Shown here in pieces: positions 21,264-39,895 of a stretch of 64,000 nucleotides of DNA. Position numbers and translations under genes: made by a program. The stretch comes from Bdellovibrionia bacterium (GTDB lineage Bacteria > Bdellovibrionota > Bdellovibrionia > Bdellovibrionales > JAGQZY01): positions 132,148 to 196,147 of the forward strand of contig JAUHWH010000003.1 in assembly GCA_030424715.1 (NCBI GenBank). Direction: 5' to 3'. Under the pieces are notes generated by a model, which saw only the letters and a program-made list of their open reading frames with translations, searched no databases and was not told the origin of the DNA. Every line of letters starts with the position of its first letter. The stretch's first letter is position 1.

Positions 21264-21424
21264 CGCCTCTCTTCGAGATCAACGAATAACCTGGTAATTT
21301 CAATATCTTACTGATTGGCCCTAATCTTGAACTCTAAAGGTGCGTTGAACCATCTAAAAGTTCTCGACCGTCTATATATAGGTTTTCTATGTCGTGATTG
21401 ATCGAGCTGAAAGGGAAGAGATCC

Positions 21425-22291
21425 GTGATCAAGAAGAACGCCTCCGTTAAACAGACCACATTGTTGTTTACAGCAATGATCCTCGTGCTGTTTGCCAGTT
21501 CTGTTGCGTTCAGCTCTTTTGAGAACAGCACGGCCGTTGGTGTTGAAGACAAAGAGGCAAAACTCGTTTTGGTTAACAGTTTTGGCTACCGGATCACTAC
21601 CGACACGGCTGACAACAATAGCCAAAAGGTTTTTAACCAAGGCTTAGCTTACAGCGGGACCCTTTTCTTTTTAGACCAATACTATGCCATAGCGAACATT
21701 GGTGCTGCCTACCACACTGTGGACGCTACCCTTATCGAACAAGACAATGGCTCCATTCAATTATCCGACATGTTAATTGGTGTCGGTACCAAAGGTTTCC
21801 ATTTATATAAATCTCAGCGCGACAGTGTCTCCGCGTTTGCCAAAATCTTTAATGTACTCCCATTGAGCGAAAGAAGTCGTAACGAAGGCTACCGCTCCAT
21901 ACCTTCTATTTCAGGTGATTTGGCCTATCAGCAGGGCCCTTGGGGATTTGTTATTTCCGCCGAGCAGGCCTATGTCTTTAACGAATTTGATACCAACGTC
22001 CAAGGATTATACAACTTGCAGTCCGCCGTATCGGGGGGAATGACCCTGCGCTACTCCCATCGCTACTTTCGTTTGCAATACAGCTATCGCGCGGGCGTGC
22101 GTACTTATATGGACAACAACCGTCTTGGTGGGTCCGGGAACAGTTTTTCAGTCACCGGTATTATCAATCAAAACTTTTGGGCTTCGGTCAGCACGACCAA
22201 TGTGAACTATCTTGACGAACAATTTATCGATGTTTGGTTTTATAACCCTTTTGAAAGAATTTATAACCTAAGAATGGGAGTCACCTTCTAA
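21425..22291 (+). CDS. Probable outer-membrane beta-barrel protein
   Basis: 288 residues from GTG at 21425; TTG at 21398 is an alternative, but AAGGGAAGAG lies well placed before the GTG. A signal peptide runs to about residue 28. The mature protein is made of alternating hydrophobic/polar strands with many aromatic residues at strand ends, and the last residue is phenylalanine (RMGVTF), the usual signal for barrel insertion. It is therefore a likely outer-membrane barrel of about ten to twelve strands. Its stop overlaps the start of the protease lipoprotein gene (TAATG), so it is the first gene of a coupled operon and probably a partner or anchor for the large lipoproteins. Confidence 0.75.
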   Translation: MIKKNASVKQTTLLFTAMILVLFASSVAFSSFENSTAVGVEDKEAKLVLVNSFGYRITTDTADNNSQKVFNQGLAYSGTLFFLDQYYAIANIGAAYHTVDATLIEQDNGSIQLSDMLIGVGTKGFHLYKSQRDSVSAFAKIFNVLPLSERSRNEGYRSIPSISGDLAYQQGPWGFVISAEQAYVFNEFDTNVQGLYNLQSAVSGGMTLRYSHRYFRLQYSYRAGVRTYMDNNRLGGSGNSFSVTGIINQNFWASVSTTNVNYLDEQFIDVWFYNPFERIYNLRMGVTF

Positions 22292-25200
22292 TGAAAGTTC
22301 TATTAACGATCACCCTCTTATTTAGCTTCGCTTTGACCGCCTGTAATGTGAAAAAGCGGGATGCGGAAACTCCAGTACCAACCCTCAAGCGGGTGAATAC
22401 GGACTTCTTTTTTAACTTTAACGAAGACCGCACGTCCTACACTTCAAAGCGATTTCTTTTTGGTTCAAGTATCGAAGATAAGGCCGGTCCTTACCGAGAC
22501 CTTTATATGGATCACTGGAACCTAGAGGGACACGCCAATATTGAGTTCGAATACAATCAAGAGGGTAACAAACTTATCGGAAAACTGGTGAATCCGACCT
22601 ATCCCAACGACAAAAGCAAGTGGCAAATTATAGTCACCTTTGATATCTCCAGCGCCTACTACGAAGAGAAAAGAGTGGATGCAACAGGCAGAACCAGCAA
22701 CGATGAGATCCGTCGCTCAGACCGTAGTGACCCTCGCGCTCGCCCTTTTATCGATTTAGAAATTAGCTCCATGAAGGTTTGGGCCACAGATCGTCTACAA
22801 AATCCAGTAACAGCGTTCATGGGTCAGACGGTTTACGATGTTGAATGGGCCAAAGAGGGCAATTTCCTCGGTTTTACAGTCATCGGAGGATCAGCCCTTC
22901 TAGGCCAAACCGCACAAACAACAAAACGCTTCAACCTTATGCAATTCGAACCCGGGTCGCCGGATTTCGAAGAAACCCCCTACCATCGTGACAATGACAA
23001 ATACACCCAGATTATTGACATCATCGGCTCACGTCCCAACCACTTTGGTGAGCGTCTTAAGGCCGTTCATTGGGACATCAATGCCAAAACAAAAAAGAAA
23101 CATGTGATTCATCTCCACAACTTTCCGGACAAGTACCTACACGTCGCACAAGACTCCGTAAAAGCCTGGAACGATGTTTTTCAAAAAGAAGTCGGCTATC
23201 GACCTTTTATTGCTGAAGTCTCAAAACGAAAATACGCCTTTGATTTGCGCTACCATACTATTCATTGGGTTGATGATATTCGTTTGTCTTCGGCTGGCCC
23301 ATTAGGACTCGCCAATATGGCAGCCGACATCACCAATGGTAAGGTCTTATGGACCGCGTCCATCATCTGGGGTGGCATGCTTGATCAATATGCGGCCATG
23401 GACATCCCATCGAGTGCTGGTAGCATCAGTGGTTTAACATCCAGTCGCTATAACCTAGAAGGTCTCGTTCCAGAAAGTATGACTTCTTGGAGAGCGCCAC
23501 TAGTAGCGAACACCAGTTTTAATCAGTTCGATAATCAAAATTTTGTGAACTTTCTCAGTCAATTTATTACAGACACCAGCAGTAACTGGATGAAGACACA
23601 AATTTCCGAAAAGACCGAAGAACTAGAGGAACTTGTAAAAACAGGTGACATCAATAAATCCACCATGGAATTACTCGTGGCTAACTACAAAGAACAGCTC
23701 AAAGAACTGCAGTCTTTGAATTCACCCAGTGAATTGCGTGCCGTTATGGCGAAGCTACTCGGTAAAGGATCTGTCAATCAAGTCGACGTCGGATCTGCTT
23801 GGCTAGACCTTAAAGACAATCCCTACAAGTTCGCTCAAATTTTGAAAGAAATCAAAATGGAGGACGTCACTAAGGACGACGGTGATTTGCTAGACATGGG
23901 TGCTTTTGACGCCAAATCAGAGGCTTACCAGGCTCTCCCGGAGACTCTTCGTAAACATATCATTGAGCACTCGGCTGAAACCATCAACCTTAGTTTTGAC
24001 GGTGACAACCCGGCTGTGGACATTCTTAGTGATCTCAGCTCAAGTTTTCAAGAGCTCAACACCGATGAACGCCCCATCGATATCGTTGACGTCAAAAAGT
24101 CAATGATGCGCAAAACTATTGTTCATGAAATTGGTCACACTCTTGGTTTGGCTCACAACTTTAAGGCCAACATTCTTCCTGAAAAGGGGACCGTGCCTAA
24201 CGCCATTTACAACGATCTCAAAGAAAAAGCCGAGAATGGCATGATCAACTCGAGCAGTATTATGGGTTATCCTGATGGACGTACAACGGTTCTTACTCCC
24301 TATGAAAATCAAGTGCCGGGCCACCATGATATCGCTCGCATCAAGTACCTCTATAAAAAACAGTATCCGATGTATGACAAATCCACCAATGGTGAATCCG
24401 ACTACGTGTGGAAGACTGTCGATGATAGCAATGGTCGCATCGAGCCCCAGGTCACGATTGACGGCAAAACTCTAACCCCAGGCTATCTACCAGGCTGTAA
24501 CGATTTTGCGGCTAGCTTTTACTCTGATCCCTATTGTAATCGGCATGATCGCGGTTACAACGCCCGTACGCTGATGAAAAGCTATTTCACAGGCTACTGG
24601 AACCGTATCATGAAAAATCTAGAATCTAATATCGATGCTCTGAAACGTCGCGACTACTTCGGCATAGAAAGATATCTATGGAGAATGACTTCGATGACTC
24701 TTTCTCGCGGGCGTCTGTTTCACGACTATATGAGAAACAAGTACCGCGATGAAATCGCGGCTCTTAACACAGCCACCACCAAGGGCACCTATCAAAACTT
24801 GATCTCTTTTTCTAACAGCTGTCGTAGCTTGGTGAACTCTGAGACGGGTGCTGATAAAACTTCAGACGAACTGGAAGCCATGAAAGATGGCAAGATCGTC
24901 TCCAATTTCATTGAAGAAAAGTCGGATGGTTCTTACGGCATCAATGAGTTCGGTGATCTTTGTATCGCGTCGACCATCTATTTTGATGAAATCAATAAAC
25001 TCGTTAATCTCGAGGGTAAAGAATACACTCAGATTGACTATTTCAACAGACTGATCCCAGGTGGTATTCGCTCTGGCGAGAGTCGGTCGGATTACGCCCA
25101 GGCTTTTGGTAGTTGGAAGCGCATGTCTTTGCTTCCCATTCGCTTTATGGTTATGCAGAGCATGATCTTGCCTTACGCCACAATGTCGACCCGTTATGGT

Positions 25201-26091
25201 GACTATCCGCTCTATCCTTACAACCGAGAGGACACCTCTTTTAGTACTGCGACACTTTTTCCAGAAGAGTACTTAAAAGTGGTTCGCTCACTGATCCAAA
25301 GCACCATGCATTTTGAAGATGCCAACAAGCAACCCCGCATCTCAAGATCTTTACTCTATCTTGGCTACTTTTTAAGGATGCAAGCTTACTCTGAGGATTC
25401 TCAGTTCTTTTCCTCTGATATATTGAAAGCGATTTCGGATCAAACGCAATTCCGTTTTTCTCAAGCATTGATCGAAGTCGAAGCCAACAAGATCAACAAC
25501 GATGACTACGCCAAGACCTTCAAAGGATCCATCTACAATGCTCATAACTCATTTGGTAAAGAGACTTTGGGGCCCATCTATTTGTTCTCGCTGGACAAGC
25601 TGATTATGGACTCCCAGCCCAACAGTCTAATACTGCAATTGTCTCCTGTGCGCTGGCGCTCAAACTCCAGTGGGGTTTCTCTCGCTATTAAACTCGACTA
25701 TGAGCCAAATATCCACTTTGAAGAACTCGATGCTTTCTCGCCACGCAAATATTTTATTAACCAGTATAAAAATGCCTTAACCACATGTATTGAAGGTAAC
25801 AACGCAGCCAATGACAACGGACTGCAGTCTTTCTTTACGAACACCACCGATGACGAGATCTTTCGAGGAATCGAAATACCCAATGATATCCATCGACGAG
25901 ATCGCGCCTACATAGAGCTGAATGACTCTATCGAGAAAGCGCTTCGTTTGTTTGCAGAAAAAAATAACTTTGATCTGCGAGAGTGCGAAAACGCAATCGA
26001 GACTCAAAAAGTGATGGTTTTGGGTGCCGCACTTATGGCCGGCCTGGTGTTTCCAGAGACCATTGACTATCTAGAAATGGGAGTTCGATAA
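22291..26091 (+). CDS. Giant lipoprotein with metzincin-type zinc protease domain
   Basis: 1266 residues. The lipobox ends at C18 (ALTAC), followed by Asn, so outer-membrane sorting is likely by the E. coli rule. The zinc motif HEIGHTLGLAH spans 612-622 and the methionine turn SIMGY contains M658, which together define a metzincin-like metalloprotease. The surroundings (HNFKAN, then a HHDIARIKYLY segment) resemble bacterial zinc proteases of the DUF4953/DUF5117 type. The rest is about 600 N-terminal and 600 C-terminal residues without recognisable domains. It is joined to the flanking genes by TAATG overlaps on both sides. I infer a surface or periplasmic protease acting with the barrel and the two lipoproteins that follow. 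Confidence 0.85.
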   Translation: MKVLLTITLLFSFALTACNVKKRDAETPVPTLKRVNTDFFFNFNEDRTSYTSKRFLFGSSIEDKAGPYRDLYMDHWNLEGHANIEFEYNQEGNKLIGKLVNPTYPNDKSKWQIIVTFDISSAYYEEKRVDATGRTSNDEIRRSDRSDPRARPFIDLEISSMKVWATDRLQNPVTAFMGQTVYDVEWAKEGNFLGFTVIGGSALLGQTAQTTKRFNLMQFEPGSPDFEETPYHRDNDKYTQIIDIIGSRPNHFGERLKAVHWDINAKTKKKHVIHLHNFPDKYLHVAQDSVKAWNDVFQKEVGYRPFIAEVSKRKYAFDLRYHTIHWVDDIRLSSAGPLGLANMAADITNGKVLWTASIIWGGMLDQYAAMDIPSSAGSISGLTSSRYNLEGLVPESMTSWRAPLVANTSFNQFDNQNFVNFLSQFITDTSSNWMKTQISEKTEELEELVKTGDINKSTMELLVANYKEQLKELQSLNSPSELRAVMAKLLGKGSVNQVDVGSAWLDLKDNPYKFAQILKEIKMEDVTKDDGDLLDMGAFDAKSEAYQALPETLRKHIIEHSAETINLSFDGDNPAVDILSDLSSSFQELNTDERPIDIVDVKKSMMRKTIVHEIGHTLGLAHNFKANILPEKGTVPNAIYNDLKEKAENGMINSSSIMGYPDGRTTVLTPYENQVPGHHDIARIKYLYKKQYPMYDKSTNGESDYVWKTVDDSNGRIEPQVTIDGKTLTPGYLPGCNDFAASFYSDPYCNRHDRGYNARTLMKSYFTGYWNRIMKNLESNIDALKRRDYFGIERYLWRMTSMTLSRGRLFHDYMRNKYRDEIAALNTATTKGTYQNLISFSNSCRSLVNSETGADKTSDELEAMKDGKIVSNFIEEKSDGSYGINEFGDLCIASTIYFDEINKLVNLEGKEYTQIDYFNRLIPGGIRSGESRSDYAQAFGSWKRMSLLPIRFMVMQSMILPYATMSTRYGDYPLYPYNREDTSFSTATLFPEEYLKVVRSLIQSTMHFEDANKQPRISRSLLYLGYFLRMQAYSEDSQFFSSDILKAISDQTQFRFSQALIEVEANKINNDDYAKTFKGSIYNAHNSFGKETLGPIYLFSLDKLIMDSQPNSLILQLSPVRWRSNSSGVSLAIKLDYEPNIHFEELDAFSPRKYFINQYKNALTTCIEGNNAANDNGLQSFFTNTTDDEIFRGIEIPNDIHRRDRAYIELNDSIEKALRLFAEKNNFDLRECENAIETQKVMVLGAALMAGLVFPETIDYLEMGVR

Positions 26092-29000
26092 TGAAAAATC
26101 TAATCCGAATCATCGCTGGCCTCCTTTTTGTTTCGGCCTGCACACCTAAAACTATGGAGAACAACACCCATAGCGAAGCTCCCGTTTATGGACAAACACC
26201 TGAGGTGAGTTTTCTCGCGGTCCCCGGGATCGATGCCGCTAAGGCAATGTACGAGGAGAATCGACGTCTTGTAGATACCGAAACCGAAAGTAGTACTCTC
26301 AAAGCAATAGCGAATTTAGAGGTGTATGTTCTCAACAGAGAGAACTTGAAGAATCCGGAACTTAATTTTCAAGGGCAGCTTCACCCCACGTACAGAAGTC
26401 TGATCAATCTTCATGGCTACGCTTTATCTGTGGCGATTAGCAAGGGCTATACCCAGGAAACTCTGTCTGGCCACCTTAAGGCCTACAAAGACACTATTTT
26501 CACAAATTGTAAGATTGAAAATGCCGACTGTCCTCTGGCCGCTCCTTTTAAGGGTCCTTACGGCGCCCAAATTTTGAGCCACATCATGAAACAAGAGGTT
26601 GGACGTGTATCGACAATTGCTCAGAATAAAAAGCTGGATATGCAGACTCTAAAAAATATTATTTTTGGCCTGTATGTGTTGAAAAACTTCAATGAAAGTC
26701 ATTCTACGAAAGCTTCTGAGCTGTTTCTAAGCTTTTCTTCGATTTTCTTTAATAACACCAAAACCGATAACATTACCGACCCATTGCTTCTGAAGTATCT
26801 GACCGACTTGCAAAATGTTATGCTAACCCAAATAGAGGCAGACCCTAATGGTTCATCTTGTGCTATTTTCTCGGAAATCAGTCGTGAGAAGATCACTGAA
26901 ATATCCACGACCCTAAACAGTCGGTTTGTAACACAGCTGACCAACCACTATTACCGCTGCCATTCGCCGGAACAAGTTTTTGAACGTCTGCAAGAAGATG
27001 AAAAACAACGTAAAGAGACAGCCGAAAAAGAAATTGAAGAGAAGGGCGACTGGACGGAGTTTCGTAAAGACATTCACAGTCGCGCCTATGTACTTAAAAA
27101 GAATCACAGTAAAGTATTGAGCAACTTTGGTGTTCAAGGCGAAATTTCTTTGCCTGTTCTCTATCTGATGGACCAACTTTATTATGGTAATCTCGATGCC
27201 TCTGAAATTGACACTGTTCTTGAGCGTTTTTCAGAGGAGATGCTTGCTCAGTTCGTCGAGCAGGCCGAGCAATACATTCAAATGAACTTTCTGTATACCA
27301 TGCAATACACTTTTCAGCTCTTCAACAAGGCTCTCAAAGAGAGTTTTGAAACCAACGGAGCGATTAACAAGGAATTTGTCCAACTTGTCTACGACAAGCT
27401 TTGGGATCAATCGGGCAACACCTGGAACAAGCATAAAGAGCATATGAGTCAGTTCAGCCTGGGTCTTGCGGAAGTCTATTTCAAGCTCAGCGATGAGAAC
27501 AAAGATCGTCTAGCAGAGACCTACAATGATCTTAAAGACGTAAAGTTGAACACCAGTTCACTGACCAACCTAATTAACCTCACTGTTACGTATCCCATTG
27601 TTTTGGCAACGACTTATTTTGCCGGTGAAAATGGCGGAGGCGTGATGAGTATTCGTGTCACTTGGGGTCGGGGCACCGACACCACTCTCGACATCGCGAC
27701 CGTTCGCCCTTTGAAGGACTTCTTTATAAGCCCTCAATACAACATCTTACAGCTTCTTGATTTTGGAAATCTTGGTTATCAACCTCGTGAGTTTGAAAGA
27801 AACATTGGTCTAGCTGCAGCGATCAAGACTGGATTTTTTGACACCGTAAACCTGGACCTCGGCAAGGAAAATCAAGGGCTACGCCACAATCTGGCTCTAT
27901 TTTTCAAACGCTATGTTGAGGACAATGACGAGCGAACAGAAGCGGCACAAGAACAAATTGAAAAGCTTCGTAAAATCAAAGACGAAAACTGGCGTAAAGT
28001 GCAAAGATTCTGCTCTCAACCCATTTCAGGATTCCGTCGATTGGATTTGGCATCAGTGAAGAGTGACTTCTACCTTGACGCAAAAGAGGCCACCTCATCA
28101 AGTGGAAAAAAAGATCTCTCTTATGTGTCTAGTGTTTTAGATTTTCGCACTTCGGTGGACCTCTTAGATAGTGAGATTAATAAAATTAAGCGTCTTTACC
28201 AAGTCTTGCTAGGTGCATTGGAAGATGCCGGAGAGCGAACGTCTGATATTAAAATGCGATTTCAAGAAGAGGTGATTCCACAATTCTCCGCCCAGCAGCG
28301 AATTTTGAGTCAGATGAACGATTTGTTGAAGGATCTCAAGCAGGACAATGAAAACTGTCTTCTCACTTTGACGAAAATGCAGATGTTTCAACAGAATATA
28401 ATGCAAAAACAAAGCGTCGACTATCTTGCGAAAGTTCACGCTGCGATGACTTTACTGTCGCCGACTCGTCTCAATCCCGTAGTGGATCAAATCGATACCT
28501 CGCGCGAGGCCAATGAGATTGCTTCTCAGTTGATATCTAACCTGAGGCAAGAACAGTCGAAGACTTCTGACCCCTATGAGAAAGATCTCATCGCGAGTCT
28601 GACGCAGTCATCAGTATTAAAAGACGTGATGTCACAGCTAGGACACGGACCCAAGAAAGCCCTTGAGAAGGCTTTAAACCTTATGCTCCTTCCCCATAAC
28701 TACGATGGTGATGATGACATGGGCTATCAATACAGAATATCTGGCATGACCACGAGAGCACGGTCTCTGGATGATTCGAACAGCTTTTTGAATCCTCGAG
28801 GTGGCTTTAATGAGGACACCTTTATCATGAGTCGTCATGACCAAGAGATGCGAGCCAGGGAAGAAATCCTGCACCTGCAAGCGCGAGCTTCAGAATTGGA
28901 GACGTACTTTGCCGGTATGCCGAGTATTCAAAAGGAGATTGAAAAGCAGCGAAAACAAAAGAACCTTGGCACCTCTGAAGACTTTTGGGTTGAATTGAAC

Positions 29001-30227
29001 CCCAATCTTCGGATTCAAATAGAGACCTTTTCGATTTATAAAGATCGCTACAAGTCCACGGAGGCTCGAAGCGAGATGCACTATCAAGCCGATCGCGATG
29101 CCTTTATTATTGATGGGCTAGAAAAGATGCTTGGTCGCAATCATAGTCGCTTGTTCTATTGGGCCAATTTGTCTTGGAGCGGCAACCCCTATGACCAAAT
29201 GATAAAAGAAGACCTAGCAAACTACAAAAAAGGTCCCATCTACATACCCACTCAACTGTCAAAGCAGGGCGGAAACCTCAGCTGTATGCTTGATGCTTCT
29301 TTTGAAGAATTAGATGATAGGCAAAACTGTCAGCGCTTTGCTATCGATGCCAAGAAGGTTGTAGACAACTTTGTTGAACAGGCACAGTTTTATCACTTAA
29401 CTGAAGGTGAGATCTCTCCGATTCTTCGCTACGACGAAGAGGGTGACTTGACCCCTTTAAGTGCTTTGGCCAATCGAACTCTTTTGAATTCGGTTAATAT
29501 TGAATATTATGACCCTTCGGCAATTCTAAGTGGTTTTGACTATTATCAATACAAAGATGAGATCAATAAATGGACTTGGTTCGATCACTTTCTAGCGCGA
29601 AAGTTCACGGTTTTTGTTGGCTTGGATGGAGAAAAACAGGTCGTCAATGTTCCTATGTTACCAGGAACTTATATGTATCAAATGTTTTATGAACAGTCGG
29701 TAAACGGTCGTTTTAATGATCATTTTCTCCAGCTCGGAAAAAAGACGGAAGATGTTTTTCGAAACTTCTACCGCAGTGAAATTCAGAAATCCATCAGACT
29801 CACGGAGGATATCATTGAGCAAATTGTGAAACGCGAATACACAACCAAAGAAACTGATTACCCTCAGATCTCTTTACAGCGAAAAGACATCGCTGACACG
29901 GGGAGTGACAACCTCAGAGAGTGGGTCAGTCTAGAGATTAAATCACGTAACAACGGAAGTCTCATTCTATTGGGTGACAAAAACTACGAGGTCGATCAGT
30001 TCACCACCCAACAGAAAACGGTCTTCAAGGACTACAACTGCACGCTTCTCCCTAAAAAGGGTGACTCGGACCACTCTGCTGAGCTTTCGGCTTGGATTGA
30101 AAAATCCACAAGTTGTCCGCTGAAAGTTCGCCGTTGGTTACAATTTAAGGAATGCGAGAAAGCCACTGCGAGAGCCAAAAAATTTGACTCCTACAGCGCG
30201 CAATGCGCCGCTGGGTTAGGGGAGTAA
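26091..30227 (+). CDS. Giant lipoprotein of unknown function (paralogue A)
   Basis: 1378 residues with lipobox VSAC ending at C17, followed by a NNTHSEAP motif that recurs almost unchanged in the next gene. The mature chain is mostly charged helix, with coiled-coil-like stretches near 300-330 and 620-760, and a beta-rich section near 490-600. There are few cysteines. No enzyme motif is seen. Several blocks correspond in order to the next protein: a helix ending in a YPI/YPA element, an acidic FKRYVEDN-type helix, and a FNDHF motif. This suggests duplication. The start overlaps the protease gene (TAATG). Function unknown; a structural or client-binding role near the protease is inferred. Confidence 0.8.
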   Translation: MKNLIRIIAGLLFVSACTPKTMENNTHSEAPVYGQTPEVSFLAVPGIDAAKAMYEENRRLVDTETESSTLKAIANLEVYVLNRENLKNPELNFQGQLHPTYRSLINLHGYALSVAISKGYTQETLSGHLKAYKDTIFTNCKIENADCPLAAPFKGPYGAQILSHIMKQEVGRVSTIAQNKKLDMQTLKNIIFGLYVLKNFNESHSTKASELFLSFSSIFFNNTKTDNITDPLLLKYLTDLQNVMLTQIEADPNGSSCAIFSEISREKITEISTTLNSRFVTQLTNHYYRCHSPEQVFERLQEDEKQRKETAEKEIEEKGDWTEFRKDIHSRAYVLKKNHSKVLSNFGVQGEISLPVLYLMDQLYYGNLDASEIDTVLERFSEEMLAQFVEQAEQYIQMNFLYTMQYTFQLFNKALKESFETNGAINKEFVQLVYDKLWDQSGNTWNKHKEHMSQFSLGLAEVYFKLSDENKDRLAETYNDLKDVKLNTSSLTNLINLTVTYPIVLATTYFAGENGGGVMSIRVTWGRGTDTTLDIATVRPLKDFFISPQYNILQLLDFGNLGYQPREFERNIGLAAAIKTGFFDTVNLDLGKENQGLRHNLALFFKRYVEDNDERTEAAQEQIEKLRKIKDENWRKVQRFCSQPISGFRRLDLASVKSDFYLDAKEATSSSGKKDLSYVSSVLDFRTSVDLLDSEINKIKRLYQVLLGALEDAGERTSDIKMRFQEEVIPQFSAQQRILSQMNDLLKDLKQDNENCLLTLTKMQMFQQNIMQKQSVDYLAKVHAAMTLLSPTRLNPVVDQIDTSREANEIASQLISNLRQEQSKTSDPYEKDLIASLTQSSVLKDVMSQLGHGPKKALEKALNLMLLPHNYDGDDDMGYQYRISGMTTRARSLDDSNSFLNPRGGFNEDTFIMSRHDQEMRAREEILHLQARASELETYFAGMPSIQKEIEKQRKQKNLGTSEDFWVELNPNLRIQIETFSIYKDRYKSTEARSEMHYQADRDAFIIDGLEKMLGRNHSRLFYWANLSWSGNPYDQMIKEDLANYKKGPIYIPTQLSKQGGNLSCMLDASFEELDDRQNCQRFAIDAKKVVDNFVEQAQFYHLTEGEISPILRYDEEGDLTPLSALANRTLLNSVNIEYYDPSAILSGFDYYQYKDEINKWTWFDHFLARKFTVFVGLDGEKQVVNVPMLPGTYMYQMFYEQSVNGRFNDHFLQLGKKTEDVFRNFYRSEIQKSIRLTEDIIEQIVKREYTTKETDYPQISLQRKDIADTGSDNLREWVSLEIKSRNNGSLILLGDKNYEVDQFTTQQKTVFKDYNCTLLPKKGDSDHSAELSAWIEKSTSCPLKVRRWLQFKECEKATARAKKFDSYSAQCAAGLGE

Positions 30228-30231
30228 GAGA

Positions 30232-33200
30232 ATGAGTCAAACCTCCTCCCTAGCAGTCATCTGTTTAACCTTAGGACTGTGTTTCACTGCAGCTTGCACA
30301 GAAACACAGACTAAGAACAACACGCACAGTCCAGCTCCTTCACAAACTCGCCCCGTACCGGAAGAAGAAAGGTCTTCATTGGCTGTCGCGGCGCTGGCTT
30401 TGGAAAATCAAACAGATTCCGTGGTCGATCATCTCGAGGCGTTTTTCGAAGACTATTTGACCGAAGACTTCTTTAAATCCATGCCTCAAACTCGTGATCC
30501 CGAAGAGATTCAATCTCTCATTCGATTTCATTTGAAGTTTGTACAAGAATTTCGCGTGAAACCAGCAAGTCGGGGTCGGTTAGAGAAACTGAGCGCAAGA
30601 TACTACCAAAGGCTCCTCACGATTTGTAAAAATGATTTCAATGATTGTGATGCCATAACCGTTTACAATCGGACGATCTACGCTGGCGATGTATTCTTTG
30701 CCGCCGATCCATTGATTGAATCGGGTAGAGAAACCTACGTCCAATTTCGAAGTCTAGTGGGCCATCCAGAGAATAATATCCACATTCTGAACAGCCGCCT
30801 CCAAGAACTGAACCTTGCTCTCATTAACAAATCGCAAGTTTCCGTCGAAGACATCAACCAACTGACAAATCTAATGACCTATTTATCAGCTCGCACCAAA
30901 AATATTGATATTTCCACGGTCAAAACCCTGCGACAACTGGCTAAGATTAATCCAGATAAACCCTATATTAAAAAACGCTTTGAGCGAGTCTTGACCATTG
31001 CTTTGGCAGGGGCATCTAATACTGAGGTTTCCAGCATCGCTGAAAGCTACATTAAGACCATAATCAAAGATGAGGGGCTCGCTAAGACTCTCTCGATGCA
31101 AAAAAGACCGGGTCTGGTGCAATGGAAAGGATCCATCGAATCCTTTGATGCCCTGGAAGAATGGGCTCTAGTTTTTGTATTGCTGGGTTTAAAAGATGGT
31201 AAGTTCTCCGGCGATCTCCATGACTTTTACACCCGCAATCAACTCCGCGACGACGAAAAACGTCGCAAGCTTCTTCGTATCGCCCGTAGCTTTGTTTATA
31301 AGCAGCTTATCGATAACGTTTACCGGTCGCATGAAGTCGTCGGTGACCACTTTCAACAAGAGCTTGACCGACGCGGAAGCATTGAGGCTCTATTCTTTGA
31401 TTTCTTTGACGTCGCCGACCGAGAGCTGGCTTTGATTTGGACAAACTCCTATCGTTCCGAGGTCTTTGCCCTTGCCCAAGGACTCAGCCCGTTCTTCTCA
31501 GCCGAAGAGTTGAGTGAGTTCTCTCAGATCACCGCTCAGCTGGATAACAACATTAGAAATTTGGTCGTCTATCCAGCTCATTTTATTATCGGATACTACG
31601 CCACCAAACAGGGGAACTTTGATTTTACCATCCCACTACGTGGCGGCAAAACTTTACAGATGAATGATAAAGACTATTTTAATGATCATTTTGAAGGTCG
31701 GACACCGAACTTTTTTAATGCTGTACAGGCAACTCGATCCACAGCACAAGAGATTTTACTGTCGTTCTACCTATCTCTTGATGAATCGATATTGCAGTCT
31801 TATGGCTTAAATCTCTCCTTTGTCGAACGCTTTGTGAAGAACTACCTCGAGGATGATCGTCGCAAAATTATAGAAATGAACGAAGACCTGAAACAAAAAT
31901 TTGCCTCAAGCACTGATGCCAATCGCTTTTTACAGAGCTGCTCCCGGTTGTCAAAAAATGATTTCGCCTTTGACTACAACCTTTCTTTTAAGAAAGCCGA
32001 CAGTTACTATTTCTATGGCCAGACCAATCTTTTTGCAGGGTCTCAAAGCGTCCAAGGAACCAGTCGTGAGTTTGCTAATTTTGTGAACATTTTTAACTGG
32101 GATGACATTAACACGAATCTCTCTGAAGATATGGAATACCTTCGAGTCGATGTGGGCCCCAAGATAAATCGTCTAAGACTCATGAAAAAAGCCCTCACTG
32201 ACCAGGCTGCTACAACCAAGGCCGGACTCCTTGATTCGTTTATCTCTTCTTTTGAGAAGCTGTCAGAGGATTTTGCAGCCACTGCTGAAAATCGATTTAG
32301 AGACTCTGTCAAATGCATACAATTGCATAATGATATTGAAGCAAAAATGCGAAAAGTCTTTTTTATTAAAGAGATTGAAATGGCAAAAACCATCTACGCC
32401 GTGCTCCGAGTTCTTAATTCCAACGAAGGACCACTGCCCTCAGTGACCGAGCTAAGAAAAACAAATCCAGCCCTTTTCCGAAGCCCCCTCTTGAATAACC
32501 TCTCGGAAAATAGCGATATCATTACTGAACTGAACCAAGAGTTTGCAAGCATCGGAGAAGACCTCAAAAGGCAAGTGCGAGGCTACCAGCGAACGGTTAA
32601 CCCAACCATTGGGTTTTCTAAAGAAAAGTCATCAGGTCAGTACATCTTCCGTTCTAATCGTTTCGAGGAACGCTTTCGCCGAATTGCCTTTATGCAGGAT
32701 GAGTCAAAACAGGGCTCGCAATACCCAACAGCACGCATCACCGAGATGCCTGCCGACTACGAACAGTTGATTGAAACTTTCCAAAAATACAACGACTCTT
32801 ATAGCCTCCGCTTGACATCTGAGCGTCAAACAGAGAGTGATTTTGTCTTGAACTACCTCAATACCGTACAGTTCCCTAGCGCGGGTCGAGAAACAACCTA
32901 CGAGGTCGATCGTCGATTCGTTTGGAAAAATATTATTCTCAATTCGGCCACCATCAGTAAATTGAAAGCCTTTAACGCTGTCAAAAGGAACTACGATTAC
33001 GGGACCTATACTAAGAGCGTTGGCGCAGCACTTGATGAAACTTTTGACTTCCTACAAACACGGATCAACCAACTTTTGACGTCTATGAACATCGATAACG
33101 AGGAAGAAGCTATTTTAGATGCTCTTCGCAGTCAAAGCATGATGAGAGAAGACGGTCGCTACAATGGTAACGAATTGTTCCTCTATGATCGAGGCGGTGC

Positions 33201-33747
33201 AAATATTTATGAAATGGGCAAGTATGACTTATTCTTTCATGTCTTGGTAAGCTACCAGCTAGGAAAGAAATTTGTTTTGCGCGACCGATTGTTCCTGGAT
33301 GACCCGAACCCGGTCTTAAGTGCTTGGTTGCCGCGTGCCTCAACCTCAAATGGGGGAGACACCAATGGTGACAATCGAATCACTACCGACGAGATTGTTG
33401 TCCGAAGAGACATCAAGAACTTTTCTATTACTAACGCTCCAGTGGTGAAGCGCTTTTCGGAAAACCTGATGTTTGAAATTGAGTCTGAAGCCAAAGAAAT
33501 TATTCAACATGACTTGTTCCAAACTCTGATGGCCGACTACGCAGCTGCGGATGCTTTTATTCTTTGGACCAAAGACAATCGAGACTCCGAGGCGGAGAAG
33601 GTGCCTTATGATATGGATCTTATAAGGTTTCCTTCACCCTACCAGCCACATGCCCTTTTACCATCGGTGGTGACTAGGTACTATGAGTCTCGGTCAAACT
33701 TTGACGCCGAAACATTCAATGTATTTGCCGTCGAGTCAGAAGAATAA
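30232..33747 (+). CDS. Giant lipoprotein with an EF-hand-like loop (paralogue B)
   Basis: 1171 residues, lipobox TAAC ending at C22, then NNTHSPAP as in the preceding lipoprotein. Overall it is helical, charged and without enzyme motifs, and appears to be a shorter diverged copy of the preceding gene. Near the C-terminus, residues 1043-1054 read DTNGDNRITTDE, a close match to a calcium-binding EF-hand loop. It starts 4 nt after its neighbour and closes the four-gene operon. A GC-rich hairpin without a T run follows the stop. Function unknown; calcium could stabilise the assembly. Confidence 0.8.
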   Translation: MSQTSSLAVICLTLGLCFTAACTETQTKNNTHSPAPSQTRPVPEEERSSLAVAALALENQTDSVVDHLEAFFEDYLTEDFFKSMPQTRDPEEIQSLIRFHLKFVQEFRVKPASRGRLEKLSARYYQRLLTICKNDFNDCDAITVYNRTIYAGDVFFAADPLIESGRETYVQFRSLVGHPENNIHILNSRLQELNLALINKSQVSVEDINQLTNLMTYLSARTKNIDISTVKTLRQLAKINPDKPYIKKRFERVLTIALAGASNTEVSSIAESYIKTIIKDEGLAKTLSMQKRPGLVQWKGSIESFDALEEWALVFVLLGLKDGKFSGDLHDFYTRNQLRDDEKRRKLLRIARSFVYKQLIDNVYRSHEVVGDHFQQELDRRGSIEALFFDFFDVADRELALIWTNSYRSEVFALAQGLSPFFSAEELSEFSQITAQLDNNIRNLVVYPAHFIIGYYATKQGNFDFTIPLRGGKTLQMNDKDYFNDHFEGRTPNFFNAVQATRSTAQEILLSFYLSLDESILQSYGLNLSFVERFVKNYLEDDRRKIIEMNEDLKQKFASSTDANRFLQSCSRLSKNDFAFDYNLSFKKADSYYFYGQTNLFAGSQSVQGTSREFANFVNIFNWDDINTNLSEDMEYLRVDVGPKINRLRLMKKALTDQAATTKAGLLDSFISSFEKLSEDFAATAENRFRDSVKCIQLHNDIEAKMRKVFFIKEIEMAKTIYAVLRVLNSNEGPLPSVTELRKTNPALFRSPLLNNLSENSDIITELNQEFASIGEDLKRQVRGYQRTVNPTIGFSKEKSSGQYIFRSNRFEERFRRIAFMQDESKQGSQYPTARITEMPADYEQLIETFQKYNDSYSLRLTSERQTESDFVLNYLNTVQFPSAGRETTYEVDRRFVWKNIILNSATISKLKAFNAVKRNYDYGTYTKSVGAALDETFDFLQTRINQLLTSMNIDNEEEAILDALRSQSMMREDGRYNGNELFLYDRGGANIYEMGKYDLFFHVLVSYQLGKKFVLRDRLFLDDPNPVLSAWLPRASTSNGGDTNGDNRITTDEIVVRRDIKNFSITNAPVVKRFSENLMFEIESEAKEIIQHDLFQTLMADYAAADAFILWTKDNRDSEAEKVPYDMDLIRFPSPYQPHALLPSVVTRYYESRSNFDAETFNVFAVESEE

Positions 33748-33750
33748 GTA

Positions 33751-33774
33751 GTGGCGGGGCAAGGAAGCCCCACT
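33751..33774. terminator. GC-rich hairpin between convergent genes
   Basis: GGGGC (33756-33760) pairs with GCCCC (33767-33771) around AAGGAA, with further GTG/CAC pairing outside a bulge. It separates the end of the large operon from the convergent carbonic-anhydrase-like gene. There is no T run. Confidence 0.4.
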
Positions 33775-33777
33775 CGT

Positions 33778-34587
33778 CTAATAATTGGTGATCGGCCGAT
33801 CGTTGGTTGGCTGAATGGGTCGATTGTTACTCTTGAACAACCCACGAACCATAGCAATCTGCTCTTTGCTCAATTGTAATGGAGTATTAAACACAAACCA
33901 TTGCACACCTTCAAGACAAGGTGGGTGAGTGAGTGAGCCCTGATAGTGATAATAAGTCTGTCGTGGCGGGATCAATTGTAAAGGATTGAACTTAAAAGTG
34001 GGCGACGATTTGTAGCCATTGAGAACTTTGGCTTTATCCCATAAACGATCAAACCACGCACTCCCACGACCGGTAATCACAAATAGCGAAATCATAGCCT
34101 GCTTTAATCCATTGGTCGAACGGTGGTAAAATTGCAACTCCATTGGCAATCGATTGCCAGACAAGGAGTGCTCACTCGGTGTGCGCATTTCTATTTTTTC
34201 TAAAATATAGTCAGTCCCCTTAAAATTGACCTGACTCTGGGGAGTCATCTCAAGCCTGATGGTGTATCCCGTATTCATCAAGGTGGCATTGGTCTCACGG
34301 TAAGAGATATCCAACGGGTTGGGTGACGAAGGCTTGTGCCAAACCAAGTTGATTGGAGATTGCTGAGTTCCCGTGGCACACATGTCATACTGTGGGTTCA
34401 ACTTAGACCACCTTTCGGGGCCTCGCGGACTGTCGGCCTCATAGTCCCAGCTCCAGGAGTCTTTTTGCGGAGTCGGTGCTTGTTGCACTTCAACCGGCCT
34501 TTTCTCAACAGGTTGTTCCGGGGGTGTGGAGCTACAAGCCGTAAAAAGAAAAAGGGCCAAAGTGACAAACGCGACAGATGGATTCAT
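33778..34587 (-). CDS. Carbonic anhydrase-related lipoprotein lacking zinc ligands
   Basis: 269 residues: lipobox TAC at C18, a proline-rich linker, then an alpha-carbonic anhydrase fold. Conserved landmarks include QSPINL (76-81), SEH (138-140), GSLTHPPCLEGV (218-228) and the cysteine pair C70/C224. However, the positions of the three zinc histidines are E133, R135 and Q152, and the proton-shuttle histidine position is Y108. It should therefore not bind catalytic zinc and is best called a carbonic anhydrase-related protein, perhaps a binding or structural lipoprotein. AGGAGA precedes the start. It is convergent with the giant lipoprotein operon. Confidence 0.88.
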   Translation of the reverse strand: MNPSVAFVTLALFLFTACSSTPPEQPVEKRPVEVQQAPTPQKDSWSWDYEADSPRGPERWSKLNPQYDMCATGTQQSPINLVWHKPSSPNPLDISYRETNATLMNTGYTIRLEMTPQSQVNFKGTDYILEKIEMRTPSEHSLSGNRLPMELQFYHRSTNGLKQAMISLFVITGRGSAWFDRLWDKAKVLNGYKSSPTFKFNPLQLIPPRQTYYHYQGSLTHPPCLEGVQWFVFNTPLQLSKEQIAMVRGLFKSNNRPIQPTNDRPITNY

Positions 34588-37933: not shown

Positions 37934-39895
37934 CTAGAAGTTGTCCGGACGGTTGGGGGAGACGGTGTCATCGTGACGATCGGGCTCCGTGGGCTCTGGA
38001 GGAGTCACGGGAACCGGATCACCACTGGAGATCCCAATATCATCGTCCGGGATGGTTGCGGCTGGGTAGTCTACGGCATTTTTAGGAGCACCCTCACAAC
38101 GATCGGCTGTTTTAACTTTAAAAATAAGGTCGATAGCCAAATTGAAATAACTTCGCTCGCCATCGAGCCCCTGGCCGTACTCAAGGTGGTTGACGATCTC
38201 CCGCTCGCTATCTAGGAGATAACTATAAGGTCCTGCCATGAGCACAGCAGAGCGCAAGTGCGTGCCATTACCAAAAGCATCGGTCTCGTCGGTGTGTAAG
38301 ATATGACAAGCATTGATGGCGGCAATGCCATGATCTCTGAGGCTAGCAATCTCACCAAGGTCGGAAACACCATTGCGATTGGCATCAACCCAGATTTTTA
38401 ACTTATCTGAGTAGATCTCATCATCCCACGGCCCAACATAGCGATGCTCGACGTTAACACTTTCACAGTTTTTACCGGCGAAGGCTTGGAGAGCCTGGAA
38501 GCCATTTTCGTAGGTCTTTCCACCCACGATCATGTTGTCACCAAACATCTGTGTGGAACTTGTCACTTGCCCCTGATCATCCGGGATCACCAAAAAGCCA
38601 TCGCGACTGCGCAGTCGCACATCCAGGTTAACCCTTGAGTCGTTTATGTTTAGATTTTCATCGACATAATCGCCACCCAGCCAAGCCGAACGGTGCGACT
38701 CGCCAGCATTTCCATTATTCTCGAGGGCGGCCATATTAAAGTAGGTACCCCAGCGCACGCTAGATGTTTTAACACCATCGCCATCAAGGTCGATCACTAT
38801 AGGAGTGTACTGTGACGATAGCATGGTGCCATCGACATCATGGGACAAAATATTATTCACCAATTGCGCGGCTCCATTGATCGGGTCAAAATGATAGCCA
38901 TTCACCTCTTTGGGTAAACTGAGGTTTTTTGTTAGATCATGATAATTTTTATGGACGGCACAGACATCCAAAATATTATCGATGGAGGAGTCAATCTCAA
39001 GCCCACGAGTGGTGTCTTCGGAAAGTCGAACTATATCGTGTTGCATCTGCTCTGATCTTAAGTCAGCGACATAAAGTTTAATGATCTGAGGGTCACCGTT
39101 TTCAACAGAGGGCACAGGTCCGAACAGGCGGTTGGCAAACTCGCCAGCAAAGGCCTGGTCAGGAGCACAACGCCCCACCTTGCAATACCCGTAATACATA
39201 TAGTGAATCATGTGTTTCAGGTAACTGCGCTTTGCACTGGCTGTTTTTTTGCTCCTCAGGAGATCGGCCGACAACACTGGATCAGAATCACTCACTTTAA
39301 TAAAATCGTATTTGTTGGGAGACACCACCAATTCGTCGGCATTGACTTTAATGGTACTAAAGAAACAACGCTCGCCGGTTCGATATTGCCGAGCCACTTC
39401 GCGATTATCAGCCGGGTAGTAAGCGTGTTTGCCACCGTAGGTTGAGGTTTTTTTGCCTCCCACCGGGATATAACTGACACCGCCGTTGCTCGCACTTAAA
39501 ATAGCGCGTTGGTTCGCCGCCTTTGCCAAACCGTCATGCTTTTTACCAAAGGAGTAGGAAAACTTCACCGGAATCGTTTGCCCACTCTCATCAGCGGCAG
39601 CCTCGGTCAGAGCCATCTGTTTTTCCATTTCGTAAAGACCATCGATCGTACAGTCTCTAATGGGAAGCTCGATGGCATCACTTATCTCGTTGACATGGAA
39701 GGGTCGTGAAGCGGGGATCGCATCCTTAATGCTGTAGACATCACCCACTTGTTCATGAACGTTGAAAGAACTTGAGAAAGCGGCTGCTTTTAAGGCCGAT
39801 TTTTCAGCCTCACTGGGCCCGGCACCATTGGTACAAGCGACCACTCCAAGGGATAGAAAAAGGATCCAACAACACACTCTTAATAAAGCCATCAA
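37934..39895 (-). CDS. Lipoprotein with RTX-associated/EF-hand calcium motifs
   Basis: 653 residues, lipobox VVAC at C21. The C-terminal half matches the region often found at the end of RTX-type calcium-binding proteins: PIVIDLDGDGVKTSS near residue 369, an exposed DGFLVIPDD segment, then an EF-hand loop DANRNGVSDLGE near 504-515 and the HGIAAIN element. The N-terminal half has no recognised domain. The C-terminus is proline- and aspartate-rich. AGGAG precedes the start. A surface or periplasmic calcium-dependent protein is likely; activity unknown. Confidence 0.75.
   Translation of the reverse strand: MMALLRVCCWILFLSLGVVACTNGAGPSEAEKSALKAAAFSSSFNVHEQVGDVYSIKDAIPASRPFHVNEISDAIELPIRDCTIDGLYEMEKQMALTEAAADESGQTIPVKFSYSFGKKHDGLAKAANQRAILSASNGGVSYIPVGGKKTSTYGGKHAYYPADNREVARQYRTGERCFFSTIKVNADELVVSPNKYDFIKVSDSDPVLSADLLRSKKTASAKRSYLKHMIHYMYYGYCKVGRCAPDQAFAGEFANRLFGPVPSVENGDPQIIKLYVADLRSEQMQHDIVRLSEDTTRGLEIDSSIDNILDVCAVHKNYHDLTKNLSLPKEVNGYHFDPINGAAQLVNNILSHDVDGTMLSSQYTPIVIDLDGDGVKTSSVRWGTYFNMAALENNGNAGESHRSAWLGGDYVDENLNINDSRVNLDVRLRSRDGFLVIPDDQGQVTSSTQMFGDNMIVGGKTYENGFQALQAFAGKNCESVNVEHRYVGPWDDEIYSDKLKIWVDANRNGVSDLGEIASLRDHGIAAINACHILHTDETDAFGNGTHLRSAVLMAGPYSYLLDSEREIVNHLEYGQGLDGERSYFNLAIDLIFKVKTADRCEGAPKNAVDYPAATIPDDDIGISSGDPVPVTPPEPTEPDRHDDTVSPNRPDNF

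Follow-up and report, generated by a model that had tools for sequence, protein, structure and literature searches.

We describe a four-gene cassette at positions 21425-33747 of a 64,000-nucleotide stretch of DNA (the window) from a Bdellovibrionia bacterium (assembly GCA_030424715.1, contig JAUHWH010000003.1). The cassette encodes a predicted outer-membrane beta-barrel protein (BAR), a metzincin lipoprotein (MET) and two giant lipoproteins (A and B). Its features are as follows.

21425..22291, + strand: BAR, predicted outer-membrane beta-barrel protein, 288 amino acids (aa) (open reading frame (ORF), signal peptide, AlphaFold2 model)
22291..26091, + strand: MET, metzincin lipoprotein, 1266 aa (PF16313 match, lipobox LTAC18)
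24124..24156, + strand: catalytic zinc-binding motif HEIGHTLGLAH, MET residues 612-622
24253..24270, + strand: Met-turn SSIMGY, MET residues ~655-660
26091..30227, + strand: giant lipoprotein A, 1378 aa (lipobox VSAC17)
27570..27839, + strand: giant A, part of the best-conserved A/B core, residues 494-583 (pooled alignment, n=46)
30232..33747, + strand: giant lipoprotein B, 1171 aa (lipobox TAAC22; homologous to A)
31549..31794, + strand: giant B, part of the conserved A/B core, residues 440-521 (pooled alignment, n=46)
33748..33780, no strand: 3' boundary, an inverted repeat (GGGGC..GCCCC) that separates B from a convergent carbonic anhydrase gene

An earlier note, made from the letters of the window alone, had placed four genes at these coordinates with two TAATG overlaps and one 4-nt gap, and the ORFs and junction sequences confirm this to the base: the overlaps lie at the BAR/MET (CTAATGA) and MET/A (ATAATGA) junctions, and the gap at A/B (TAA-GAGA-ATG). 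We prefer the GTG at 21425 over the TTG at 21398 as the BAR start, because a purine-rich sequence resembling a ribosome-binding site, AAGGGAAGAG, lies directly upstream of the GTG. The signal peptides of MET, A and B end in a lipobox Cys (residues 18, 17 and 22, respectively), which on sequence grounds bears out the lipoprotein status proposed for all three. The inverted repeat 3' of B may serve as a terminator. A recent horizontal import of the cassette is unsupported by base composition, with a G+C fraction of 0.444 vs 0.466 in the remaining window.

The presence of HEIGHTLGLAH and a methionine turn in MET, as first noticed, was verified, and two results go beyond that reading: MET belongs with a named Pfam family, and the two giants are homologues. 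Residues 603-789 of MET match PF16313 (DUF4953, 'Met-zincin') with an E-value of 5.2e-10 and 39.5 bits (cut-off 24.2). No other cassette protein of the window has a clear family match in Pfam, to which NCBIfam, PHROGs and PADLOC add nothing, and the PF16313 match recurs in five of six aligned cassette metzincins. Both HExxHxxGxxH and the Met-turn (S/T-x-x-M-x-Y) are intact in all 27 cassette metzincins inspected, suggesting that metzincin activity is under selection. Asp occurs at +2 in none of the lipoboxes detected in metzincins, which fits predicted outer-membrane sorting by the Escherichia coli rule, a rule not established for this phylum. The superfamily of the catalytic domain is known, and as far as the literature searched goes it is functionally uncharacterised. 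Matches of the metzincin alignment to ApoE fall in a variable insert (~400-520), have the look of helical-composition artefacts and were set aside. In genome G082 (L057:9698-13533), the metzincin is split over two overlapping ORFs of 692 and 586 aa, by a frameshift, an assembly error or a real split.

Profile comparison of A with B using hhalign gave a probability of 100 and an E-value of 1.8e-85 over 1039 columns, nearly the full length of the proteins. In a joint tree, a single branch with support 92 separates A from B (one label change), and we therefore attribute them to a single tandem duplication that predates the spread of the system. The pooled alignment of 46 giants aligns the lipobox Cys in 46/46 and keeps Cys132, Cys139, Cys570 and Cys695 (B numbering) in 98-100%; Trp898 and Phe871 are nearly invariant, and the core carries the motifs N-I-K-x-x-x-x-Y-P-x-M, G..P-W-F and D..L..E. 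No conserved residue set in this alignment resembles a catalytic site. An AlphaFold2 model of window B (29 sequences; predicted local distance difference test score, pLDDT, 67.6) is mostly helical and includes one 70-residue helix. The giants had been noted as having no recognised domain, and this is upheld: they gave only chance-level matches in Pfam, NCBIfam, PHROGs, PADLOC and PDB sequences, so that neither falls within an already described system in these libraries. Their reading as a phage or defence element was rejected, as neither PADLOC nor PHROGs matched. A Foldseek search of giant B against the PDB found nothing better than E 2e-3, with a template modelling (TM) score of ~0.1; these weak matches are importin and CAND-type proteins (TPR/HEAT-type solenoids, E 2e-3 or worse), and at such a TM score we do not count them as a match. 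A small contig of genome G170 (L156:3401-9160) encodes a giant-like protein of divergent sequence (E 2e-18) and then a lipoprotein of 1006 aa unmatched by any of our profiles, possibly a third branch of the giant family.

BAR has no Pfam match. Its AlphaFold2 model comprises ~12 strands (pLDDT 70.4, predicted TM score 0.66), supporting the outer-membrane barrel first suspected from sequence. The best Foldseek matches of the model are the FapF structures 5o67/5o65 (E 2e-9, TM ~0.55, 10-13% identity), with other 12-strand channels, including the COG4313 type, ranking behind; we read these fold matches as indicating a probable 12-strand channel and do not claim FapF membership. The metzincin-A-B sets of the related genomes G004 and G003 have no internal barrel, and in each of these genomes one stand-alone barrel is the sole homologue detected. 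Barrel-less copies also occur in G271, G304 and G110, which have other copies with a barrel in the same genome. The BAR profile gives no match in the cassette-free genomes G001 and G018. Since genomes with a barrel-less cassette have a BAR homologue at another site and cassette-free G001 and G018 have none, the barrel appears tied to MET, A and B even when it is not adjacent to them, and the arrangement suggests that one barrel could serve several metzincin-A-B sets. The stand-alone barrels (L181:8171-9385 and L184:6693-7907) are 404 aa long and adjoin a gene for a 506-aa lipoprotein; both lie in genomes with only barrel-less cassettes.

About 20 other genomes carry homologous cassettes made up of the same genes, which places the window cassette far beyond chance. 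Across the phylum, 23/369 genomes match, including a second class with intact sets and two atypical members, G066 and G170. Wherever enough sequence is available, metzincin is followed by A and then B, with the barrel usually between A and B and with short or negative intergenic gaps; the barrel-first order is found only in the window and in the fragmentary locus of G091. The window genome carries a second complete cassette on another contig beside ATP synthase, in the order metzincin-A-barrel-B (L006), and G004, of the same family, carries four metzincin-A-B sets. In a metzincin scan that took one genome per species, an alignment query matched and a single-metzincin query found nothing; every additional full-length metzincin came from a record that carries the label Bdellovibrionota or that of one of its subgroups. 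No genome listed under genus g7 (probably Bdellovibrio), many of which are complete, contains the cassette, and a genome labelled Bdellovibrio sp. ZAP7 has no giants. A metagenome-assembled genome labelled Bdellovibrio sp. LF-bin-127 carries the metzincin and giant A.

The components co-occur sharply. A full-length metzincin is found in 18/144 genomes of the class, and the giant-A profile finds the identical 18; the hypergeometric probability of such an overlap is ~3e-23, relatedness ignored. The BAR profile finds 17 of those 18 plus G091, where the barrel lies beside a metzincin fragment at a contig end; the cassette genome without a BAR match, G114, is incomplete (74%). Homologues of MET and the giants are thus found together and are not scattered separately among these genomes. 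The distance matrices of metzincin, A and B are correlated (0.82-0.86), at a level reached in 0/2000 permutations. The window set groups with G304a in all three trees, joined by G137 and G098 in those of metzincin and A, while the second set of the window genome groups with G092, G110 and G004b in the metzincin, A and B trees. Since they lie in different old subfamilies, the two sets of the window genome and the four of G004 are not recent copies.

Gain and loss also involve the whole cassette. In G001, which belongs to the window's genus, the genes that flank the cassette are directly adjacent with nothing between (L168 6767-6770); the 12.3-kb block is thus either there in full or missing altogether. 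In G066, compared with its close relative G065, one deletion of 10.6 kb removed the unit from flanks of 83-88% DNA identity. The deletion begins shortly inside the metzincin gene and stops close to the 3' end of B (L157:10600-11400 vs L041:9940-20564), so that only ~45 nt of the former and ~365 nt of the latter (its last 122 codons) remain. That the four genes are a single co-inherited genetic unit is well supported by these results. The dedicated protease assembly proposed at the outset is therefore strongly supported as a genetic unit, whereas a physical complex is something we infer. Outside the cassette, the conserved right neighbour (33778-34587, - strand) encodes a eukaryotic-type (alpha) carbonic anhydrase lipoprotein that is also present at the empty site of G001, and a nearby gene (37934-39895, - strand) encodes a putative lipoprotein of 653 aa for which Pfam gives no significant match.

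We propose, with a probability of roughly 0.6, that the four genes build an outer-membrane proteolytic complex in which the barrel is anchor or channel, A and B form a scaffold, and the metzincin is the catalyst. All four products are strongly predicted to be exported, three of them lipid-anchored and one as a beta-barrel, and assembly would take place on the outer membrane. The metzincin would act as catalytic subunit, its zinc-bound HExxHxxGxxH and Met-turn cleaving protein, to judge by the motif and the Pfam family. A and B, predicted to be mostly alpha-helical and, from their conserved Cys, probably disulfide-bearing, have no recognisable enzyme motif; the pair would probably serve the protease as a scaffold, as a clamp or as a platform that presents substrate. 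The 12-strand barrel would anchor the assembly and may conduct a polypeptide through the membrane, and the single stand-alone barrel of G004 or G003 beside barrel-less sets (four of them in G004) would fit a shared docking partner. The patchy distribution of the cassette, with several copies in some genomes and loss from others, leads us to favour surface or extracellular protein processing over a housekeeping role. A bolder version, which we consider speculative and on balance improbable, envisages modular machines: different metzincin-A-B sets would be interchangeable on a polypeptide-conducting 12-strand barrel, in some cases a shared one, giving several protease heads per cell, and the giants would be paired helical lipoproteins of a new structural family.

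Several points weigh against the proposed complex. Congruent trees and co-occurrence demonstrate co-inheritance, not contact; the correlation of the MET, A and B matrices partly reflects the shared ancestry of the genomes, and the trees were built by a quick method and have long branches, including that of G000a (the window). In G004, G003 and G081, a number of giants carry Asp at +2 of the lipobox, which would predict inner-membrane retention under the E. coli rule, itself not established for the phylum. The weak sequence conservation of A and B (15-20% identity) would also fit a looser, fast-evolving binding role, and the model of giant B is of only moderate confidence (pLDDT 67.6).

A nutritional role, with protein from the environment bound by the giants, broken down by a metzincin at the surface and taken up as peptides through the barrel as a diffusion porin, in effect functionally SusCD-like, would account for the recurrent pairing of barrel and protease; several divergent copies per genome would suit different substrates, and an accessory cassette whose loss is tolerated fits as well. 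We nevertheless regard it as unlikely, as the cassettes examined and their immediate surroundings yielded no TonB-dependent transporter, the closest barrel folds are FapF and COG4313-type 12-strand channels and not SusC, and a soluble secreted protease could dispense with two partners of 130-150 kDa. The FapF likeness could instead point to export and maturation, with the barrel exporting a polypeptide (possibly encoded elsewhere), the metzincin trimming it and the giants chaperoning it through the periplasm. The top fold matches of the barrel are indeed structures of a polypeptide transporter, and helical giants could serve as a periplasmic chaperone or scaffold; however, with a TM score of ~0.55 and other 12-strand channels also matching, the likeness may reflect strand number only. 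No cargo gene is common to the loci, and no FapA-E-like genes were noticed nearby, although no dedicated fap search was made. We consider this idea more doubtful than the nutritional one.

That predators exist in the phylum, and that all subunits are predicted to be exported with lipoboxes on three, could speak for a contact or predation apparatus whose protease attacks the envelope of other cells. Absence of the cassette from the listed g7 genomes and from the same-genus genome G001, together with the lack of giants in ZAP7, argues against this, as does the fact that no adhesin, toxin or secretion partner is coupled to the cassette, and we rate a predatory role as quite improbable; the interaction with other cells raised as a possibility in the earlier note gains no support here. 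Operon neighbours are not always functional partners, and the barrel can lie elsewhere (G004), so the four might work independently and be kept in one operon by, for example, a common regulator. Near-identical occurrence lists, an order kept across families and in a second class, gain and loss as a whole unit, and congruent trees make this the least credible account, to which we give very little weight. The cassette is directly testable as a unit, given the sharp co-occurrence, the empty site in the same genus and the one-step natural deletion. At ~12 kb per copy, with up to four copies in one 4.5-Mb genome, its hosts devote coding space to a protein set for which the libraries and literature searched gave no described counterpart.

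No earlier description of a Bdellovibrionota metalloprotease-lipoprotein operon was found in the literature searched, and a search for DUF4953/DUF5117 was likewise empty. The giants and the four-gene arrangement are without counterpart in the libraries used, and we regard the arrangement as new. The masABK operon of Myxococcus was compared and is unrelated. The nearest relatives of MET are the DUF4953/DUF5117/DUF5118 'Met-zincin' lipoproteases (PF16313, PF17148, PF17162), with which it has the PF16313 catalytic module, HExxHxxGxxH and the Met-turn in common. In ordinary DUF4953 proteins of other phyla, DUF5118 and DUF5117 precede DUF4953, and ordinary members (L078, L061) carry all three domains; by profile, the DUF5118-DUF5117-DUF4953 order is absent from the cassette form, in which the PF16313 match is partial and PF17148 and PF17162 give no match. 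Cassette metzincins are also longer (~1250 aa vs ~830-960) and have fixed partners in A, B and the barrel, whereas genomes of other phyla with an ordinary DUF4953 protease have no giants.

A further, more distant kind of relative is formed by two-gene barrel and metzincin loci of Bdellovibrionota (L007, L037, L133, L134, L135, L185), which are undescribed in the literature searched. Their barrel is homologous to BAR (probability 97, E 1e-11) and their metzincin to MET (E 1e-35), with the two genes adjoining or one gene apart; unlike the cassette, they have no giants, their metzincins are divergent (1083-1795 aa), and they occur also in genus g7, which has no cassette. Two of them, L007 and L135, lie in the window's own genome. 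Coordinates are L007:5832-9946, L135:5688-12306, L133:6103-11793, L037:3618-10908 and L134:4004-11749, and some of these loci continue with another lipoprotein (447 or 792 aa) without a Pfam match.

FapF, the 12-strand polypeptide transporter of the Pseudomonas functional amyloid system, may share its strand number with BAR (~12 in the model of pLDDT 70.4) and gave the best Foldseek matches; the neighbours at ~25 loci were MET, A, B or genes unrelated by the profiles run, which included no dedicated fap search. The cassette differs from SusCD, which pairs a TonB-dependent SusC-type barrel with a SusD lipoprotein, in that BAR has ~288 aa and ~12 strands and the giants match no Pfam family. SusCD, BAM and LptDE are assemblies of an outer-membrane barrel with surface or periplasmic lipoproteins and offer a comparison of how such a complex might work, with no sequence relation of the cassette to any of the three detected. 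To our knowledge, none of them combines a metzincin with two homologous giant lipoproteins. If the proposed complex is real, a protease-plus-scaffold type would join the short list of outer-membrane lipoprotein-barrel complexes.

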